Below are positions 3,543-22,999 of a DNA stretch of 64,000 bases, in pieces; the stretch's first letter is position 1; every line of letters begins with the position of its first letter. The stretch comes from Chloroflexota bacterium (lineage in GTDB: Bacteria; Chloroflexota; Dormibacteria; Dormibacterales; Dormibacteraceae), in NCBI GenBank assembly GCA_005882135.1, contig VBDR01000023.1, forward strand, positions 1 through 64,000, read 5' to 3'. The notes beneath the pieces were generated by a model that searched no databases, was not told where the DNA came from, and saw only the letters and a list, made by a program, of their open reading frames with translations. The translations under genes were made by a program, and so were the position numbers.

Positions 3543-4892
3543 GTGAGCTCGGTTCGACCGACGACCCGATACGCCAAGAGCGACGACTACAGCATCGGAT
3601 ATCAGGTCGTCGGCGATGGCGCCCTCGATCTCGTCTACGTGCCAGGTTTTGTCTCGCATGTCGAACAAGCCTGGGAAGATCCTGATTTCGCTCGCTTTCT
3701 GAGCCGCCTCGCGTCTTTCAGCCGCCTGATCCTGTTCGACAAACGCGGCACCGGCCTCTCAGACAGGGTCCCGGTCAAGATGCTGCCCACGCTGGAAGAG
3801 CGAATGGATGACGTGCGCGCCGTCTTGGACGCCGCCGGCTCGGAGAGGGCTGCGCTCTTCGGCGTCTCCGAGGGCGGACCGATGACCATGCTGTTCGCCA
3901 CCACCTACCCCGAGCGCGTCGCAGCGCTTGTGCTTTACGGCACCTACGCGAAGCGTGTCCGCGACGCCGACTATCCGTGGGCGCCGACGGATGGCGCGTT
4001 CCGCGAGTTCGCTGCAGCCGTGGAGCGCGATTGGGGTGGTCCTGCGCAGCTCGATTCTTGGGCGCCGAGCGTTGCCAACGAGGCCCGATTCAAAGAGTGG
4101 TGGGCCAAATACCTGCGTCTCGGCGCCAGTCCGGCCGCGGCCCGCGCTGTCCTCGAGATGACCCGCGAGATCGACGTCCGGAGCATCCTTCCCGCGATCC
4201 GGACCCCGACGCTGATCCTGCATCGCTCGGGTGATCTCCGCATCGACGTCGGCGGAAGCCGCTACATGGCGCGACAGATCCCTGACGCGCGAATGGTCGA
4301 ACTTCCGGGGATCGACCATCTCCCGTGGGTCGGAGACGCGGACGCGATCGTCGACGAGATCGAGGAGTTCCTTACCGGCACCCGTCACAGCGCCGAGCCG
4401 GCCCGCGTCCTGGCGACCGTGCTGTTCACCGATATGGTCGAATCCACGAGCCGGGCCGTTCAGCTCGGCGACGCGCGGTGGCGCGCTCTGATCAGCGACC
4501 ATGACCGTCTCGTGCGCACCGAGCTCACGCGTTTTCGGGGCCGCGAGATCGATCGCCGCGGCGACGGGTTCCTGGCTATCTTCGACGGACCGGCGCGAGC
4601 GATCCGCTGCGCCTTTTCGATCGTCGAGCGGGTCCACGAGCTCGGGATCCAGGTCCGGGCCGGGCTTCACACCGGCGAGCTCGAGATCATCGAGCCCGGC
4701 ATCGCGGGCATCGCCGTGCACATCGGCGCGCGGGTCATGAGCCTCGCCGGCCCGGACGAGGTCTTGGTCTCGAGCACGGTGAAGGACCTGGTCGCCGGCT
4801 CGGGGTTGTCGTTTTCGGATCGCGGCATCCACGAGCTGAAGGGCGTGCCGGGCAGCTGGCGGATCCTGCGCGCCGAGCCGCCAACGGCGTGA
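3543..4892 (+). CDS. Alpha/beta hydrolase fused to class III adenylate/guanylate cyclase
   Basis: 449 aa from GTG. Residues ~10-275 are an alpha/beta hydrolase: oxyanion region VYVPGFVSHVE, nucleophile elbow GVSEGGPM (Ser), and ELPGIDHLPWVGD with the catalytic His. Residues ~285-445 are a class III cyclase: metal Asp in LFTDMVEST, second metal Asp in RRGDGFLAIFDGP, AGLHTGELE, VHIGARV with the transition-state Arg, and LKGVPGSW at the end. The fusion is common in actinobacteria; the hydrolase is thought to sense a small ligand that controls cAMP synthesis (inference). The stop overlaps the next gene's GTG by 4 nt, so the cyclase is translationally coupled to a cyclic-nucleotide-binding transporter. 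Confidence 0.9.
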   Translation: MSSVRPTTRYAKSDDYSIGYQVVGDGALDLVYVPGFVSHVEQAWEDPDFARFLSRLASFSRLILFDKRGTGLSDRVPVKMLPTLEERMDDVRAVLDAAGSERAALFGVSEGGPMTMLFATTYPERVAALVLYGTYAKRVRDADYPWAPTDGAFREFAAAVERDWGGPAQLDSWAPSVANEARFKEWWAKYLRLGASPAAARAVLEMTREIDVRSILPAIRTPTLILHRSGDLRIDVGGSRYMARQIPDARMVELPGIDHLPWVGDADAIVDEIEEFLTGTRHSAEPARVLATVLFTDMVESTSRAVQLGDARWRALISDHDRLVRTELTRFRGREIDRRGDGFLAIFDGPARAIRCAFSIVERVHELGIQVRAGLHTGELEIIEPGIAGIAVHIGARVMSLAGPDEVLVSSTVKDLVAGSGLSFSDRGIHELKGVPGSWRILRAEPPTA

Positions 4893-6787
4893 CTCCGACC
4901 GATGAGCATCCCGATGAAATCGCGGCTCAAGAGCAGTTGCTTCGAAGCATCGACTACCTGCGCGACCTCGACCGCGTCGATATCGCCCGACTGATCGGTT
5001 CGAGTGAGGACGCGCATTTCCAGATAGGCGCGGTCATCGTCAGCGAGGGCGAGGTCGCCGATTCGCTGTACCTGCTTGCGAGCGGCACGGTCGAGGTGAG
5101 CGTTCGCGTCGATGGGGCTGAGCGGTCGGTCAGGACGATCACGGCACCGGCCACATTCGGCGACCTCGGGCTACTCCTCCCTCAACGAACAGCGACCGTT
5201 CGCGCCCTGACGGATGTACAGGTGTGGCGGATTCCACGCCAGCACTTCGAGCGCCTGCTGCGCGAGCGGCCCGCGCTCGGCCTGGCCATCGCTCGCGGCC
5301 TCGCGAGCGCGATCGACCGGCGCGACCGCACCAGGGTGGGCGCTCCGCTCCAGCCGGCCGAGCCTCTGCGCGCGATGATGGCGGCTCCGCAGGCCCGGCG
5401 TTCAGGCCTCTCGCGCGTCCTCTCTATTGCCTTTGCCATCGGAGTCCCGGCCGCGCTCTGGCTGCTGCCTGCGCCGCAAGGCCTTACCAGTGCCGGTTGG
5501 CACATCGCGCTGGTCATGCTCGGCGGCGCGATCGCCTGGTTGCTCGAGCCCGTGCCCGACTTCGCGGTCGCTCTCGCCATGGCCGCGGCATGGTTGGCGA
5601 CGGGCCTCGCCCCGCCGGCAATCACTTTCGGCGGATTCACCACTTCCGCATGGGTGACGGCGGTCGCGGCCTTGGGGCTCAGCGCCTCGATGAGCGCATC
5701 AGGCCTGCTCTTCCGTGCCGCGTTGATGCTGCTGCGTGTTTTCCCACCGACACATCGCGGCCAGCTCGCCGCCCTGCTGGTCGGGGGCGTCGTCGTGACC
5801 CCGCTGGCGCCCACCGTGTTTGGCCGGGTCGCGACGATGGCGCCCGTCGCCCGCGATCTTTCGCTAGCCCTCGGTCATTCGAGGACGAGCGCAGGAAGCG
5901 CCGCGATCGCCTTCGCAGGGATTCTTGGCAACACCATCCTGGGCCCCATCTTCTTGACCGGCATGGTCACGAACTTCCTGATCATCGGCTTGCTGCCGGC
6001 AGCCGAGCAGGCGCGCTTGGGTTGGATGGGATGGCTGATCGCCGCCGCGCCGGCAGGACTGCTGCTGTTGGCCGGCTCAGCTTTGGCGGTGTTCGCGCTC
6101 AATCCGCGATCCCTGACGCGAGCCAGCAGTGTCGTCAGGCGAACACAGGAACGGTCGCTGGGTCGCCTTTCGCGCCACGAGCTGACCTCGCTGGTCGCGG
6201 TCGGCGTCTTCATCGCCGGCTTGCTGCTGCAGCCAGTCCTGCGGCTTGACATCGCCGTGGTCGGATTGGCCTCGCTCCTGGTCGCAATCGGGGGCGGTGC
6301 GCTCGATCGCCAGACGTTTCGCTCCGGGATCGATTGGGCGACGCTCATCCTGTTCGGTCTGCTGCTGGGCGCGGGCGGGGTCTTGCGGTCTGGAGGCGTC
6401 GACCGATGGATTGCGGATCTGATCACGCCGATGGCGCGAGCGCTCGGTCATCACACCTACGTGGTTCTCCTGTTGACCCTTCTCGTCATCTGCGTGCGTC
6501 TCGTGTTGCCGATGGTCCCCGCCGGATTTCTTCTGTTGGTCACGCTCGTGCCCGCCGCTCCGCAGCTGGGTTTGAGCGGCTGGGTCGTTGGCTTCGTCGT
6601 GTCGGTGCTGGTGCTGACCTGGGTGCTGCCGAGACAGTACGAGGTGCTCCGCATGGTGCGTGAGCTGACGGACGGCGAGCTGTTCAGCGACCGGCAAGCT
6701 CTGGCCATGGGGGTGGCGATCACGGTGATCGCTTCGCTGGCGATGCTGATCTGCGTGCCTTACTGGCGGGCGATCGGGATCCTTTAG
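4889..6787 (+). CDS. Cyclic-nucleotide-binding domain fused to SLC13/DASS-type transporter
   Basis: 632 aa. Residues ~15-150 are a CRP-like cNMP-binding domain (EDAHFQIGAVIVSEGEVADSLYLL, then FGDLGLLLPQRTATVRA, the phosphate-binding cassette region). Residues ~175-632 hold about a dozen hydrophobic segments with SLC13/divalent-anion-symporter-like features, e.g. FGGFTTSAWVTAVAALGLSA, SAAIAFAGILGNTILGP and ATLILFGLLLGAGGVLRSGGVDRW. It starts at GTG 4889 inside the cyclase stop codon (GTGA). The arrangement suggests a membrane carrier whose transport is gated by the nucleotide made by its operon partner (inference). The substrate is unknown; the family moves dicarboxylates, sulfate or similar anions. 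The stop overlaps the convergent recQ stop. Confidence 0.82.
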   Translation: MTPTDEHPDEIAAQEQLLRSIDYLRDLDRVDIARLIGSSEDAHFQIGAVIVSEGEVADSLYLLASGTVEVSVRVDGAERSVRTITAPATFGDLGLLLPQRTATVRALTDVQVWRIPRQHFERLLRERPALGLAIARGLASAIDRRDRTRVGAPLQPAEPLRAMMAAPQARRSGLSRVLSIAFAIGVPAALWLLPAPQGLTSAGWHIALVMLGGAIAWLLEPVPDFAVALAMAAAWLATGLAPPAITFGGFTTSAWVTAVAALGLSASMSASGLLFRAALMLLRVFPPTHRGQLAALLVGGVVVTPLAPTVFGRVATMAPVARDLSLALGHSRTSAGSAAIAFAGILGNTILGPIFLTGMVTNFLIIGLLPAAEQARLGWMGWLIAAAPAGLLLLAGSALAVFALNPRSLTRASSVVRRTQERSLGRLSRHELTSLVAVGVFIAGLLLQPVLRLDIAVVGLASLLVAIGGGALDRQTFRSGIDWATLILFGLLLGAGGVLRSGGVDRWIADLITPMARALGHHTYVVLLLTLLVICVRLVLPMVPAGFLLLVTLVPAAPQLGLSGWVVGFVVSVLVLTWVLPRQYEVLRMVRELTDGELFSDRQALAMGVAITVIASLAMLICVPYWRAIGIL

Positions 6788-17684: not shown

Positions 17685-18104
17685 GTGGCGGTAGGTGAGC
17701 TCGCTGACACGATCGCCGGGTTCGCCCTGTTCGCGGACCTGACCACGCCCCAGCGCGAGAACGTGGTCGACGTTTTCACCGAGCAGTGGTTTGCCGATGA
17801 AGAGAAAGTCCTCCGTCAGGGGTTCAGCGGCTCCGGCCTCTACATCGTGATCGACGGCGCGGCCGCAATCCGGATCGACGGGGTCGATCGAGCGACGCTG
17901 CGGGCCGGTGATTATTTCGGCGAGATCTCCTGCCTGCTTGGCGAGGCGCCGACGGCGGACATCGTTGCCATCGGAGCGCTGCGCTGCCTTGTCCTGCCCA
18001 GCACGCAGGTGGAGAGCTTCCTCAAGGCCAGTCCGAACATCATGTTCCGTCTCCTTCAGGGCGAAGCCCGCAAGGTGCGCACCACGACCAAGTGGCTGAG
18101 CTAG
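17685..18104 (+). CDS. Cyclic-nucleotide-binding domain protein
   Basis: 139 aa from GTG 17685 with GGGGAGG upstream. A single CNB fold: GFALFADLTTPQRENVVDVF, VLRQGFSGSGLYIVIDGAAAIRIDG, and a phosphate-binding-cassette-like GDYFGEISCLLGEAPTADIVA. The usual Arg of the cassette is replaced in this segment, so ligand binding is not assured. No HTH, so not a CRP regulator; a regulatory subunit for the co-transcribed flavoprotein is plausible (inference). Its stop overlaps the flavoprotein start by 13 nt. Confidence 0.8.
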   Translation: MAVGELADTIAGFALFADLTTPQRENVVDVFTEQWFADEEKVLRQGFSGSGLYIVIDGAAAIRIDGVDRATLRAGDYFGEISCLLGEAPTADIVAIGALRCLVLPSTQVESFLKASPNIMFRLLQGEARKVRTTTKWLS

Positions 18105-19621
18105 AGCCGAAGCCCTTTCCGCCAGGTCGCTACCCACTCATCGTCGTCGGCAGCGGGCCCGGCGGTCTGCAGCTGACCTACTGCCTCACGCGGCTCGGCG
18201 TCGATCACGCCGTGCTTTCGCAGGATGACGCCCCGGGCGGCATGTTTCGGCGCTGGCCGGTTTTCCAGCGCATGCTCAGCTGGACCAAGCCATACACGGG
18301 GTTCGACCGCAGCTCGCGCGAGTACGAGCGCTACGACTGGAACAGCCTGCTCGCCGAAGAGGAGTCCTGCCGAGGCGTCATGCCCGGGGTCATGGACGGC
18401 ACGTCCTACTTCCCATCGCGCCCGGAGATGGAGCGGGGGCTTGTGCTGTTCGCCGAGCGCACCGGAGTTCGCGTGCGGTATGGCTGCCGCTGGGAGACCA
18501 CACGCAAGGACGCCGGCGGTGACCTGGTGCTGGGCACCTCCGACGGCGAATATCGTGCGCCGATCGTGGTTTTCGCCGTCGGCGTGGCGCAACCATTCCG
18601 GCCACCGATACCCGGACTTGCCGACGTGCCCCACTACGGCGAGCTGCGGTCCGTGGAGACTTACGCCGACCGCCGCGTCTTCATCATCGGCAAGCAAAAC
18701 TCGGGATTCGAGATCGCCTCCGGCCTGCTCCCGTGGGCGAGGCAGATCATCCTGGCCTCGCCGAGCCCGGCCAAGCTGTCGGTCAACACCCACTCGCTGG
18801 TCGGCGTGCGCGCGCGGTACGTCCAGCCGTACGAGGATTCGGTGCTTGCGGGCGGCGTGATCATCCTCGACGCGTCGATCGAGGAGGTGAAGCTGGCCGG
18901 CACGGTGTACCAGGTCAGCACCCGGAACGCTCGTGAGAATCTGAGCCTCGTCGTCGAGGTCGACGATGTGATCGCGGCGACAGGTTTCACCGCTCCTCTG
19001 CGCGATCTGCCTGAGCTGGGCGTGAGGATCGTCGGCCAGAGCAGGTTGCCGGTCCAGACGCCATTCTGGGAAAGCGCATCGGTGCCCGGGATTTATTTCG
19101 CCGGCACGATCAACCAGGGCTCGCAGGGCATGATGAAGCACGGCATCCCAAGCAACTCCGGCGCGGTCCAGGGCTACCGCTACAACGCCCGCGTGCTGGC
19201 CCGCCACCTGGCTGAGGCCCATTTCGGCGTCAAGACCGCGAGACGGCCGATGGCCGCCGACGAGGTGATCCCGTTCATGTGCGCCGAGGCGCGATACGGG
19301 CCAGAGCTCTGGCATCAACGCTCGTACCTTGCCCACGTCATCTCGATCGACGCCGACCGCGGCATCGTGGACGAGGGCATCAGCCCGCTGGCCACGTTCG
19401 TCGACCTTGAAGGCCCTGACGGAGCCGCGATCGCTCTCGAGTCGAACGGGCACGACGACCTGTATCCGATCGTGTACGTCCGCCGCCACGGCGCAGCGGT
19501 CAAAGAGCACCTGTTGCCGGGTCATCCGCTCCTCGACTTCGAGCGCGACGAGCATCGTTCCGCGATCGCGGCTGCGCTGGAGCCGCTCTTGAGCCCCTCG
19601 CTGTCGCGGCCACGGAGTTGA
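18092..19621 (+). CDS. FAD-dependent pyridine nucleotide-disulfide-like/FMO-like oxidoreductase
   Basis: 509 aa. N-terminal Rossmann FAD motif VVGSGPGGLQLTYCL (~18-32), GGMFRRWPVF, second dinucleotide motif VFIIGKQNSGFEIASGL (~195-211), ATGF segment (DDVIAATGFTAPL) and the C-terminal PGIYFAGTINQGSQG. These are features of flavin monooxygenase/thioredoxin-reductase-like two-dinucleotide flavoproteins. Residues ~400-509 form an extra C-terminal region of unknown fold. Overlaps the cNMP-binding gene upstream and the cyclase-STAND gene downstream (TTGA), so all three are one translation-coupled unit. Substrate unknown. Confidence 0.85.
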   Translation: MAELEPKPFPPGRYPLIVVGSGPGGLQLTYCLTRLGVDHAVLSQDDAPGGMFRRWPVFQRMLSWTKPYTGFDRSSREYERYDWNSLLAEEESCRGVMPGVMDGTSYFPSRPEMERGLVLFAERTGVRVRYGCRWETTRKDAGGDLVLGTSDGEYRAPIVVFAVGVAQPFRPPIPGLADVPHYGELRSVETYADRRVFIIGKQNSGFEIASGLLPWARQIILASPSPAKLSVNTHSLVGVRARYVQPYEDSVLAGGVIILDASIEEVKLAGTVYQVSTRNARENLSLVVEVDDVIAATGFTAPLRDLPELGVRIVGQSRLPVQTPFWESASVPGIYFAGTINQGSQGMMKHGIPSNSGAVQGYRYNARVLARHLAEAHFGVKTARRPMAADEVIPFMCAEARYGPELWHQRSYLAHVISIDADRGIVDEGISPLATFVDLEGPDGAAIALESNGHDDLYPIVYVRRHGAAVKEHLLPGHPLLDFERDEHRSAIAAALEPLLSPSLSRPRS

Positions 19622-22245
19622 CCCTTCCGACCGGCACCGTGACCTTCCTCTTCACCGACATCGAGGGGTCGACGCGCCTGATGCAGCAGCTCGGCGAACA
19701 GTACGTGCAGCTGCAGATGGTGCATCACCAGATGCTGCGAGATGCATTTCGGAGCAACGAGGGACGGGAGCTCCGCACCGAAGGAGATTCGTTCTTCTGT
19801 GTATTCGCGAGCGCGATGGACGCTTGCCAGGCCGCGGCCAGCGCGCAGCGCTCCTTTGCCCAACATTCCTGGCCCGACGGCGCCGCGATACGGGTCAGGG
19901 TCGGCCTTCATACGGGCGAGGCGCCCCTGATGGGCGACGAGTACATCGGCCTGGACGTCCATCACGCGGCGCGGATCGCCGGTGCCGCGTACGGGGGCCA
20001 GATCCTCGTTTCCGAGAGCACCAAAGCGCTGGTCGTGGAAAGCCTGCCAGACGAGCTCGCGCTGCGGGACCTGGGCACCCATCGCCTGCGCGACCTGGCA
20101 AGGACTGAACGCCTCTTCCAGCTGATCGTGGCCGGCGTGCCTGATGAGTTCCCTGCCCTGCGCACGCTCGACAGGACGCCCAACAACCTGCCCACCCAGC
20201 TGACCAGCTTCGTCGGCCGCTCCGACACGGTCCTGCAGGCCAAACAGCTGCTGCAAGGCAAGCGCCTGCTGACGCTGACCGGCCCAGGCGGCATCGGCAA
20301 GACGCGGCTGAGCCTCCAGGTTGCGGCGGAGGCGTTCGACCAGTTTCCCGACGGCGTGTATTTCATCGCGTTGTCGGCGGTACGGGATCCGGATCTCGTT
20401 CCCTCCGTGATCGCCCAGGCCCTGAATCTGCAGCTGGTCGGCAACCGGCTGCCGCTGGACGGGCTGATCGAGCATCTCCGCAACAAGAAGCTGCTGTTGG
20501 TCCTGGACAACTTCGAGCAATTGCTCCCCGCCGCTGCGGGATTCCCGTCGACGCTGCTCCAGGCCGGGGCCGACTTGAAGGTGATCGTCAGCAGCCGCGC
20601 GGCCCTCCGCGCATATGGCGAGCAGGAGTTCGCGATCGAACCTCTTCACCTTCCCGACCCGAAGGTGCACCCTTCGCTGGAGGCCCTCTCGCAGTACGAG
20701 GCCGTGAAGCTTTTCATCGAGCGCGCGCTGGCCGCCAAGCCGGACTTCCAGGCCACGAACGAGAATGCCCCCGCCATCGCCGGCATCTGCGAGCGGGTGG
20801 ATGGCCTACCTCTCGCCATCGAGCTGGCCGCGGCACGAATCAAGCTCTACTCGCCGCAGGCGCTGTTGAGCCGACTCGAAAAGAGCCTGAGCGCGCTGGG
20901 TGCCGGAGCCCGCGACCTCCCAGGCCGGCAGCAGACCCTGACCGGCGCCATCGCCTGGAGCTACGACATGCTGGATCCTGCTTTCAAGCGCCTGCTGGCG
21001 CGCTTCTCCGTCTTCGCCCGCGGCGCCGGGCTCGAGCAGGCGGAAGCTGTGTGCGGACCGGCCGATGAGATCGGCGCCGATGTCCTGACCGGACTGGAAG
21101 AGCTGGCCGACCAGAGCCTCATCCGCCGCATGCCGGACTTCGACGAGCCCCGGCTGCTCATGCTGCAGACGATTCGAGAGTTCGCCGCTGAGCGTCTTCA
21201 GGAGAGCGACGATGCGGAAGTGATTCACGACCGCCACGCGGAGGCGTATGCGGCGATGGTAGAAGAGGCGCAGAAGCGACTTTTCGGCGGCGAGCGCAAG
21301 GCGCAGCTCGACCGGCTGGAGCGAGACCTCGACAACTTCCGCGCCGCGCTCGACTGGTGCATCTCGCTTCAGCGCACTGAGACGGCGCTGCGCCTCGGGG
21401 CGGCGATGTGGCGCTTCTGGCAGATGCGCGGTCACCTGCACGAAGGGCGCGGGCGGATCGAGGCCGTGCTGGCGCTCCCTGGCGTGGATAAGCATCCGGC
21501 CGCCCACCGCCGCGCGCTCGAGGCGGCCGGGGGCATCGCTTACTGGCAGGCAGACATGCGCGCGGCGCAGGCCTGGTACGACGACTGCCTTGTGCTGACG
21601 AGGGCAACCGGCGACAAACGGGCGATTGCAAATGCGATCTACAACGACTCTTTTCCCCACGTCGTCGGAAGGACCGACATGACAAAGGCGCTTCCCCTGC
21701 TCGACGAGGCACTGACTCTGTTTCGCGAGCTGGACGACCCACCCGGAATTGCCCGCTGCCTGTGGGGCATCGGCAACGTCCATCATTTTCTGCAGGAATA
21801 CACCGCGGCCGTGCCTCCACTCGACGAGTCGATCAACCTGTTTCGAAAGCTCGGCGAGAGCTTCGGGCTCGGATGGTCTCTGCACACGCGAGCCCTGGTC
21901 GCCATCAATCTCGGTGACCCCGCCACCGCGGAGCCCCTCGTGACCGAGGCCTTGGGCCTGTTCTCCAAGGCCGGTGACATATCGGGTGTCACGATCCTTC
22001 TCGATGATTCCGCGCAGATCGCGCGGCTGCGCGAGCACCGGTTGCGCTCTCTCCGGCTCGCCGGCGCGGCGGCCGCGATGCAGGCCAAGAGTGGGGCCCA
22101 GATCGCGACTCTGGCCAACGCGATCGGTGGCAGACCGGTGGCCGCCGCCGAAGACGAGGAGGAGAGGAGGGCGTTTGAGGCTGGCCAGGCGATGAGCCCT
22201 GACGAGGCCGTCGCCTACGCGTTGAATCAAGAGACCCACGCGTGA
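19618..22245 (+). CDS. Class III adenylate cyclase - STAND NTPase - TPR signalling protein
   Basis: 875 aa from TTG 19618, overlapping the previous stop. Cyclase domain ~1-175: LFTDIEGSTRLM and RTEGDSFFCVFAS carry the metal Asp residues, VGLHTGEAPL, LDVHHAARIAG with the catalytic Arg. NTPase ~200-480: FVGRSDTVLQAKQLL, Walker A LTGPGGIGKTRLS, Walker B LLLVLDNFEQLL, GLPLAIELAAARIKL. The rest is TPR-like (~560-870). Such fusions are frequent in mycobacteria and Terrabacteria and are thought to couple ligand sensing by the repeats to cAMP synthesis. No C-terminal LuxR HTH is present, unlike MalT/AfsR relatives. Confidence 0.9.
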   Translation: MTLPTGTVTFLFTDIEGSTRLMQQLGEQYVQLQMVHHQMLRDAFRSNEGRELRTEGDSFFCVFASAMDACQAAASAQRSFAQHSWPDGAAIRVRVGLHTGEAPLMGDEYIGLDVHHAARIAGAAYGGQILVSESTKALVVESLPDELALRDLGTHRLRDLARTERLFQLIVAGVPDEFPALRTLDRTPNNLPTQLTSFVGRSDTVLQAKQLLQGKRLLTLTGPGGIGKTRLSLQVAAEAFDQFPDGVYFIALSAVRDPDLVPSVIAQALNLQLVGNRLPLDGLIEHLRNKKLLLVLDNFEQLLPAAAGFPSTLLQAGADLKVIVSSRAALRAYGEQEFAIEPLHLPDPKVHPSLEALSQYEAVKLFIERALAAKPDFQATNENAPAIAGICERVDGLPLAIELAAARIKLYSPQALLSRLEKSLSALGAGARDLPGRQQTLTGAIAWSYDMLDPAFKRLLARFSVFARGAGLEQAEAVCGPADEIGADVLTGLEELADQSLIRRMPDFDEPRLLMLQTIREFAAERLQESDDAEVIHDRHAEAYAAMVEEAQKRLFGGERKAQLDRLERDLDNFRAALDWCISLQRTETALRLGAAMWRFWQMRGHLHEGRGRIEAVLALPGVDKHPAAHRRALEAAGGIAYWQADMRAAQAWYDDCLVLTRATGDKRAIANAIYNDSFPHVVGRTDMTKALPLLDEALTLFRELDDPPGIARCLWGIGNVHHFLQEYTAAVPPLDESINLFRKLGESFGLGWSLHTRALVAINLGDPATAEPLVTEALGLFSKAGDISGVTILLDDSAQIARLREHRLRSLRLAGAAAAMQAKSGAQIATLANAIGGRPVAAAEDEEERRAFEAGQAMSPDEAVAYALNQETHA

Positions 22246-22571
22246 GCAATGAACCCGTCCCCGTGACCGGGGTCTGCGAGATCGCGCTCGAGATGGCCGA
22301 CCTGGAGGCGGGCGAAAGGTTTTACGCCGGACTGCTCGGCCTGCCGGTGGTCGAGACGTGGTCGGACCGAGGCGGCGCGATCTGGTTGATGGCGGGAGAC
22401 CAGACCCGGATCGGGCTGTGGCGCCCGCAGCTGGGGCTCGGTGGCGGGCGGGGTGGCGTGCATGTCCACTACGCGATGCACCTGCCGGCTGCGGCCTACC
22501 AGGCGGCGGTCGATCGACTGCGCGCGGAGTCCCGGCAGCAATTGAGGGGGATCTATAGATGCGATTTGTGA
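22242..22571 (+). CDS. Truncated VOC/glyoxalase-like protein
   Basis: 109 aa from GTG overlapping the previous stop (GTGA). The first module is intact: VCEIALEMADLEAGERFYAGLLGLPVVETWSDRGGAIWLMAGDQTRIGLW, then VHVHYAMHLPAAAYQAAVDRLRAE. The frame then turns into SRQQLRGIYRCDL and stops, where family members continue with a GPxxFxxGxxSxYFxDPxGNxxEL segment carrying the last strands and a metal-ligand Glu. So the final ~25-30 residues are missing or replaced and overlap the next gene's start. Possibly a degraded gene or a recent junction with the ChrB-like gene. Confidence 0.65.
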   Translation: MSNEPVPVTGVCEIALEMADLEAGERFYAGLLGLPVVETWSDRGGAIWLMAGDQTRIGLWRPQLGLGGGRGGVHVHYAMHLPAAAYQAAVDRLRAESRQQLRGIYRCDL

Positions 22572-22999
22572 CCCGGAAGAACGCCGCCGTCGACCGGATC
22601 GCGTGCCCGTGGCTGATCCGGCGATTCCTCGACAAGGAGGCCGAGTTCCTGTACGTCGACCCGCAAGAGGTCGCTCGTGTGGCCCGGGAAAAGGACGCTG
22701 TGCCGTTCGACGTCGACGGGGCCGAGCTTGGCCATGTCGACGGGCGGTGCTCGTTCGAGTCCATCTTGCTCAAGTACGGCCTCGACGACCCCGCCCTCGG
22801 CCGCCTGGCCAGGATCGTGCACGGTGCCGACATCGAAGCGGACGTAGCCCAAACACCTGAGGCCGCCGGCCTGAAATCGATCGCGATGGGATTCCGCAGC
22901 ATTTACGGCGACCGCGACCACGAAAAGCTGGAGGCTCAGATGCCGATGTACGACGCCCTGTACGCGTGGTGTCGCGAGGGGCTGGCCTCAGAGGTGTAA
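22559..22999 (+). CDS. ChrB C-terminal-domain protein (chromate-resistance-like)
   Basis: 146 aa. MRFVTRKNAAVDRIACPWLIRRFLDKEAEFLYVDPQEV and DGAELGHVDGRCSFESILLKYGL, GRLARIVHGADIE are the hallmark of the ChrB_C domain (chromate resistance exported protein). In proteobacteria this domain regulates chromate efflux; here it stands alone without the N-terminal ChrB domain or a ChrA transporter, so a role in chromate defence is only family-based. ATG preceded by GAGGGGG. It overlaps the truncated VOC gene by 13 nt. Confidence 0.88.
   Translation: MRFVTRKNAAVDRIACPWLIRRFLDKEAEFLYVDPQEVARVAREKDAVPFDVDGAELGHVDGRCSFESILLKYGLDDPALGRLARIVHGADIEADVAQTPEAAGLKSIAMGFRSIYGDRDHEKLEAQMPMYDALYAWCREGLASEV

Follow-up and report, generated by a model that had tools for sequence, protein, structure and literature searches.

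Three overlapping genes lie at positions 17685 to 22245 of a 64,000-nucleotide stretch of DNA from a Chloroflexota bacterium (contig VBDR01000023.1, assembly GCA_005882135.1; the whole stretch is called the window hereafter). They encode a stand-alone cyclic-nucleotide-binding (CNB) domain, CNB1, a two-dinucleotide flavoprotein, FLAV, and a class III cyclase fused to STAND and TPR regions. CNB1 and FLAV form an obligate unit of which the cyclase is a frequent partner, and the pair occurs in Chloroflexota and Actinomycetota, in both cases in bacteria that are mostly uncultured. From its residue pattern, CNB1 would be a dedicated regulatory subunit of FLAV with a re-purposed pocket, and possibly no sensor of cyclic AMP (cAMP). 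The features of the operon, all on the + strand, are as follows.

17685-18104, +: CNB1, stand-alone cyclic-nucleotide-binding-type domain of 139 aa, partner of FLAV (Pfam, model, Foldseek)
17916-17960, +: phosphate-binding cassette of CNB1, FGEISCLLGEAPTAD (alignment)
17949-17951, +: Pro codon in CNB1 at the expected site of the phosphate-binding Arg (alignment)
18092-19621, +: FLAV, NAD(P)H/FAD two-dinucleotide flavoprotein of 509 aa (Pfam, model, structural matches)
18149-18166, +: FAD-binding glycine motif of FLAV, GSGPGG (alignment, sequence)
18683-18706, +: second dinucleotide motif of FLAV, IIGKQNSG, atypical at the second glycine position (alignment, sequence)
19244-19591, +: C-terminal alpha/beta region of FLAV, approximately residues 385-500, past the stretch that aligns with most solved structures
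19618-22245, +: class III cyclase-STAND-TPR protein of 875 aa (Pfam; Ma1120 is the nearest solved cyclase)
19618-20112, +: cyclase catalytic domain, both metal Asp and the Arg kept, with K to R, D to E and N to H changes
20185-21297, +: STAND/NB-ARC NTPase region with P-loop GPGGIGKT (Pfam, sequence)
21490-22035, +: TPR repeats, extent approximate (Pfam)

The original prediction had described a CNB domain, a two-dinucleotide flavoprotein and a cyclase-STAND-TPR protein overlapping by 13 and 4 nt. The open reading frames (ORFs), their frames and domains were confirmed, and the ORF positions place the 13-nt overlap between CNB1 and FLAV and the 4-nt overlap between FLAV and the cyclase gene. CNB1 starts with GTG, with a GGGGAGG stretch shortly 5' of it, FLAV with GTG, and the cyclase with a TTG contained in TTGA. 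CNB1 matched PF00027 (E 8.6e-13; 48.5 bits, cut-off 27.5) and FLAV matched PF13738 (Pyr_redox_3; E 2.7e-29). The third protein matched PF00211 (Guanylate_cyc; 6.4e-12), NB-ARC (7.7e-7) and TPR_12 (9.2e-12), its STAND region scoring 29.0 bits with NB-ARC (cut-off 23.5) and 31.8 bits with AAA_22 (cut-off 27). Nonsynonymous and synonymous divergence (dN/dS) from close relatives was about 0.08/1.09, 0.075/0.87 and 0.10/1.01 for the CNB1, FLAV and cyclase genes respectively. These low values denote purifying selection and indicate that all the three genes are real and constrained. The source genome comprises 2.7 Mb in 91 contigs and is 85% complete.

The arrangement of the first two genes was followed across genomes. 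CNB1 lies immediately 5' of FLAV in all 65 loci having upstream sequence, among 67 that remained once repeats were removed (L059, and 66 from genomes of the Chloroflexota type); at L066 the contig carries only the last 23 residues of CNB1. The same order was seen in 14/14 further Actinomycetota loci with upstream sequence, locus L169 ending at a contig edge. Loci dropped as repeats of contigs were L001-L004, L006, L007, L011, L013, L023, L024, L026, L029, L129, L133 and L134. For the remaining loci from the genome search, longer regions covering those places (L062-L079) were used instead; L077 and L078, two contig ends of one genome, count as two loci. Of the 57 junctions that could be assessed, 32 show the 13-nt overlap. 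Chance adjacency of the genes is ruled out by this conservation of arrangement.

FLAV of the full-length type (E at most 1e-101) is present in 29/110 genomes of the class and in 9/17 of the genus, and FLAV was detected in 37/400 genomes of the phylum at E up to 1e-40. A separate route led to 28 genome records, 27 labelled Chloroflexi, Chloroflexota or Dormibacteraeota and one Actinomycetota. Among 396 Actinomycetota genomes, 21 gave FLAV matches at 1e-30 or better, 16 of them close and 5 distant. When the 110 genomes of the class were searched with a CNB1 profile, 28 strong matches (at least 166 bits) were obtained, the next score being 112 bits, and all of them came from genomes that carry a FLAV orthologue, of which there are 29. 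The FLAV genome without a strong CNB1 match is G109, where a contig end cuts FLAV. In genome G081 the two genes are on different contigs. In one CNB1 copy (L034, 5570-6010) residue 103 is followed by an internal gap of some 30 residues. At L061 (2395-3839, on a contig shared with L029) FLAV is split over three reading frames, a broken gene or an assembly error, with CNB1 and the cyclase intact around it.

A cyclase lies at most 2.4 kb away in 53/61 assessable Chloroflexota loci, collinear and downstream in 26 and divergent in 27; placement could be judged for 61 of the 66 loci, and the architecture labels were assigned by eye and then tallied. Linkage in relatives, which the original prediction implied, is thus strongly conserved within Chloroflexota. 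Most families have the divergent cyclase, and the collinear order belongs to one clade that includes the window. In a FLAV tree of 81 sequences the collinear form makes up a single clade (support 0.991) among divergent ones, nested in a Chloroflexota clade (support 0.994), with some deeper nodes below 0.8. The window cyclase is 45% identical to the divergent cyclases over about 890 aa, whereas the other cyclases of its own genome reach at best 32% over 161 aa. The collinear and divergent cyclases therefore look like the same gene, rearranged, and linkage has been kept through the switch between the two orders. At Actinomycetota loci a similar cyclase is near only 4/15, a count read by eye with four cyclase queries, by which diverged cyclases may be missed. 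Since CNB1 adjoins FLAV at every assessable locus and a cyclase does not accompany them at all of these, the obligate unit is CNB1 and FLAV. One Actinomycetota locus (L184, 46-6340) has CNB1-FLAV beside an Arg-type second CNB (CNB2) and a 1118-aa AAA_16/TPR protein that bears no cyclase domain.

The residues that would bind a ligand in CNB1 were compared next to its fold. The CNB1 model (pLDDT, the predicted local confidence, of 92) has its best Foldseek matches in PKA RI-alpha CNB-B (9.4e-11), CRP and GlxR. Cassettes that bind cyclic nucleotide monophosphates (cNMPs) bear a phosphate-binding Arg and a Glu, as described in a review (PMC5872366). In a column-wise alignment the Arg is found in 0/78 CNB1 sequences. 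Pro stands there in 75, Ala in 1 and Ser in 2, the set consisting of 64 sequences (Pro 63, Ala 1) and 14 from Actinomycetota (Pro 12, Ser 2). In contrast, the ribose-binding acidic residue (Glu 75, Asp 3) and the Asp after the cassette are each kept in 78/78. The cassette, with the signature FGE-x-S-x-LL-x-x-x-P-[VTI]-A-D, contributes FGE-S-LL---P-AD to the most conserved stretches of the CNB1 alignment. Loss of the Arg beside full retention of both acidic residues thus points to a maintained, altered pocket and not to decay. All 22 CNB2-type matches, most of which are encoded on the same strand as the cyclase at other Chloroflexota loci, keep the Arg, so CNB1 and CNB2 seem to serve different functions. 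Ordinary cAMP sensing by CNB1 is doubtful on these grounds, though the residue pattern does not exclude it.

FLAV has a model of moderate confidence (pLDDT 79). Its residues 11-379 match YpdA (7a7b, Z 25.9, 18% identity), a flavin-containing monooxygenase (FMO; 4a9w, Z 24.8) and thioredoxin reductase (TrxR), at about 20% identity. The list of structural matches spans residues 10-410, and most matches leave the region past 385 uncovered. The core fold and Pyr_redox_3 are shared with the YpdA/FMO/TrxR group, from which FLAV differs by its extra C-terminal region and by NCBIfam scores far under every cut-off (53 of 425 bits for ArsO, NF040505; 39 of 339.9 for YpdA, TIGR04018). A sequence search of the PDB returned weak TrxR/FNR matches only. 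No CxxC is present in the FLAV sequence, and a thioredoxin reductase identity is ruled out by this. Class B flavin monooxygenases are marked by a signature of the FxGxxxHxxxY type. FLAV has, besides the fold match, only a loosely similar HY stretch whose His is not invariant. FLAV may resemble FOXRED2/ERFAD as well.

Ma1120 is the nearest solved cyclase to that of the window (1.7e-21). Both metal-binding Asp residues are present in 54/54 cyclase domains, and the transition-state Arg in 53/53 with the column present, one having a gap. These residues are common to the Ma1120/LipJ-type class III cyclases, the closest solved ones. At the base-specifying Lys and Asp positions and at the transition-state Asn position, the window and the collinear clade differ from them by R, E and H, and STAND and TPR regions are fused. 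The divergent cyclases vary at the same three positions (mainly R or G, D, and N or H). Ma1120 is reported to be an active adenylyl cyclase with Ala in place of the Asn (PMC4215837), so the transition-state Asn is dispensable. Judged by its residues, the window cyclase is probably active.

Taken together, the reading that we favour, and to which we assign an even chance, is a redox unit in which CNB1 gates FLAV through a pocket for an altered ligand, and which in Chloroflexota is coupled to a cyclase under STAND control. CNB1 and FLAV would make up one two-protein redox unit with CNB1 as the dedicated regulatory subunit, and the filled CNB1 pocket would gate the passage of electrons from NAD(P)H via FAD to an acceptor. 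Physical interaction of the two proteins is predicted here from their genes. With the ribose-binding acidic residue kept and Arg changed to Pro, ordinary cAMP is a less likely ligand than either a molecule that contains ribose but no cyclic phosphate or a cyclic nucleotide bound non-canonically. In Chloroflexota the TPR/STAND NTPase would sense a cue and activate its class III cyclase. At loci with an Arg-bearing CNB2 encoded on the same strand as the cyclase, that CNB2 may then read the cyclase output; at the others a reader in trans, or weakly CNB1, may do so. Reading of the cyclase product by CNB1 itself is possible, but it is not the best-supported step.

Two features of the proposed unit have precedents. 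Fusions of CNB to TrxR, such as ATII-TrxR, likewise have the CNB first and joined to a two-dinucleotide FAD/NAD(P) flavoprotein (PMC6544261). They are reported as one chain with cysteine redox centres; the present system has two overlapping genes, and its FLAV has no CxxC and carries the extra C-terminal region. For loss of the Arg with a changed ligand, the trypanosomatid PKAR is reported to have a CNB fold with this Arg replaced by Thr or Asn, and to bind nucleosides chiefly via Glu at position 202 (PMC10959531).

Several observations weigh against the favoured reading. Position 202 in CNB1 is Ser (63/64), not the Glu that is the chief nucleoside determinant of PKAR. Popeye-domain proteins are reported to bind cAMP despite a non-canonical cassette (PMC5872366), and loss of the Arg alone need therefore not abolish cAMP binding. 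Cyclase linkage is incomplete: five Chloroflexota loci have no cyclase match, three have a cyclase only at 4.3-5.3 kb, and the Actinomycetota count is low as given above. The moderate confidence of the FLAV model counts on the same side.

A local cyclic-nucleotide circuit, the interpretation offered in the original prediction, would have the product of the STAND-cyclase bind CNB1 non-canonically and so switch FLAV. The conserved linkage, the intact metal Asp and transition-state Arg, the activity of Ma1120 with Ala for Asn, the CNB fold with its retained ribose-binding residue and the Popeye precedent are all consistent with such a circuit. Against it stand the Arg missing from every CNB1, which makes doubtful the cAMP binding on which the circuit depends, and the Actinomycetota loci, most of which keep CNB1-FLAV without a similar cyclase. 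Moreover, the base-pocket residues of the cyclases differ between collinear and divergent forms while the CNB1 cassette stays constant, so the CNB1 pocket does not track the cyclase product. The linkage part of that interpretation thus stands; the receptor part is weakened, as the most conserved element is CNB1-FLAV, and we consider the circuit as a whole a tentative and rather unlikely explanation.

It is improbable that CNB1 is a ligand-free structural subunit, its fold a mere scaffold or stability partner of FLAV. The lost Arg, the obligate pairing and the overlapping frames, typical of subunits, would fit such a role, but a conserved cassette with Glu or Asp in every CNB1 is not obviously needed by a scaffold that holds no ligand. 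A Pycsar-like defence, in which the cyclase signals to a CNB effector and FLAV drains NAD(P)H, is very improbable: like Pycsar (PMC11224242) it has a cyclase gene adjoining a CNB-bearing gene, and CNB1 has weak PADLOC matches to PycTIR (1.1e-6) and a fold that matches the PycTIR CNB, but a TIR or transmembrane (TM) effector domain is absent from all three proteins, the cyclase here bears STAND and TPR regions, PADLOC gives FLAV no match and the cyclase only 0.0076 to PycC, and the FLAV tree, with one Chloroflexota clade and one collinear subclade, is not scattered like a mobile defence island. Pycsar membership was rejected, as no CNB fused to a TIR/TM effector stands beside PycC.

The redox unit with an altered pocket can be carried one step further. 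CNB1 might found a bacterial CNB family that has given up phosphate binding, senses a non-cyclic ribose ligand and exerts allosteric control as a subunit in a new family of flavoproteins. Such a system would be the bacterial equivalent of the trypanosome cAMP-independent PKA, here coupled to a cyclase under STAND control. This proposal is speculative and, on balance, unlikely; its ligand would perhaps be a nucleoside or part of FLAV's own NAD(P)H or FAD.

In the open-licence PMC literature searched, no description of the CNB1/FLAV/cyclase gene set was found. Each component comes from a family already known; what is new, as far as that literature shows, is the obligate pairing of an Arg-less CNB with a flavoprotein. 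Domain annotation alone would label CNB1 a cAMP receptor. A pocket that is maintained without Arg, at loci some of which also encode an Arg-bearing CNB, lends itself to testing the range of ligands that CNBs can sense. The three genes are also a concrete, expressible system in which a STAND sensor is tied to nucleotide signalling and redox chemistry, in lineages encountered here almost solely as metagenome-assembled genomes.

Pairing of cyclase and CNB genes was also counted genome-wide. The genome has 9 CNB and 9 cyclase matches, and 3 pairs of them are no more than 4 kb apart, where random placement predicts 0.24: this operon, the pair at 3543-6787, and a divergent STAND-cyclase/CNB pair on contig C7 (L031). 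The 17 genomes of the genus gave 29 pairs against 3.3 expected, with at least one pair in 13/17. This count used 128/143 CNB matches (those above the cut-off) and 150/158 cyclase matches (those listed), at hand-transcribed positions; the genomes being related, it denotes enrichment and not independent events, and no P value is claimed. A second coupled cyclase/CNB pair within 64 kb, as the original prediction had claimed, is real: the gene at 3543-4892 (alpha/beta hydrolase and cyclase, LipJ-like) overlaps that at 4889-6787 (CNB and DASS transporter) by 4 nt. Pairs spaced like it occur at G075:C102, G077:C47 and G083:C118. The CNB-DASS protein and the CNBs on C16 and C73 of this genome keep the cassette Arg. 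On C7 a different STAND-TPR cyclase (L031 2026-5309, G000:C7) is divergent from a 142-aa CNB. The latter has Ala at the Arg site, and C7-type copies in the genus have Ala or Gly, 11/11 being without Arg; 3/14 matches to the C7 query keep Arg, and these, which are other CNBs matched weakly (46-50 bits), were left out of the 11. As regards the contrast drawn in the original prediction between operon-specific circuits and one global cAMP pool, a Crp-type helix-turn-helix match coincides with only one CNB of the genome, a weak one on C49.

A plasmid search gave one distant full-length relative of FLAV (Nonomuraea, 34% identity, H1), which is unannotated. Relatives of this kind, at 32-33% identity, are found in large actinomycete genomes, often paired and without a CNB, so the wider FLAV family is not tied to CNBs. 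Such homologues without a CNB are seen at L196, L197, L198 and L089; they are paired in L196-L198, and at L197 lie beside AMP-binding and FMN-dependent dehydrogenase genes. A search around the loci for extra conserved neighbours, blurred by the shadow ORFs that GC-rich genomes contain, gave none that could be trusted beyond the core genes. Just 3' of the operon in the window, a short ORF at 22242-22999 has a weak FosA-like match and overlaps a gene with a ChrB_C domain.

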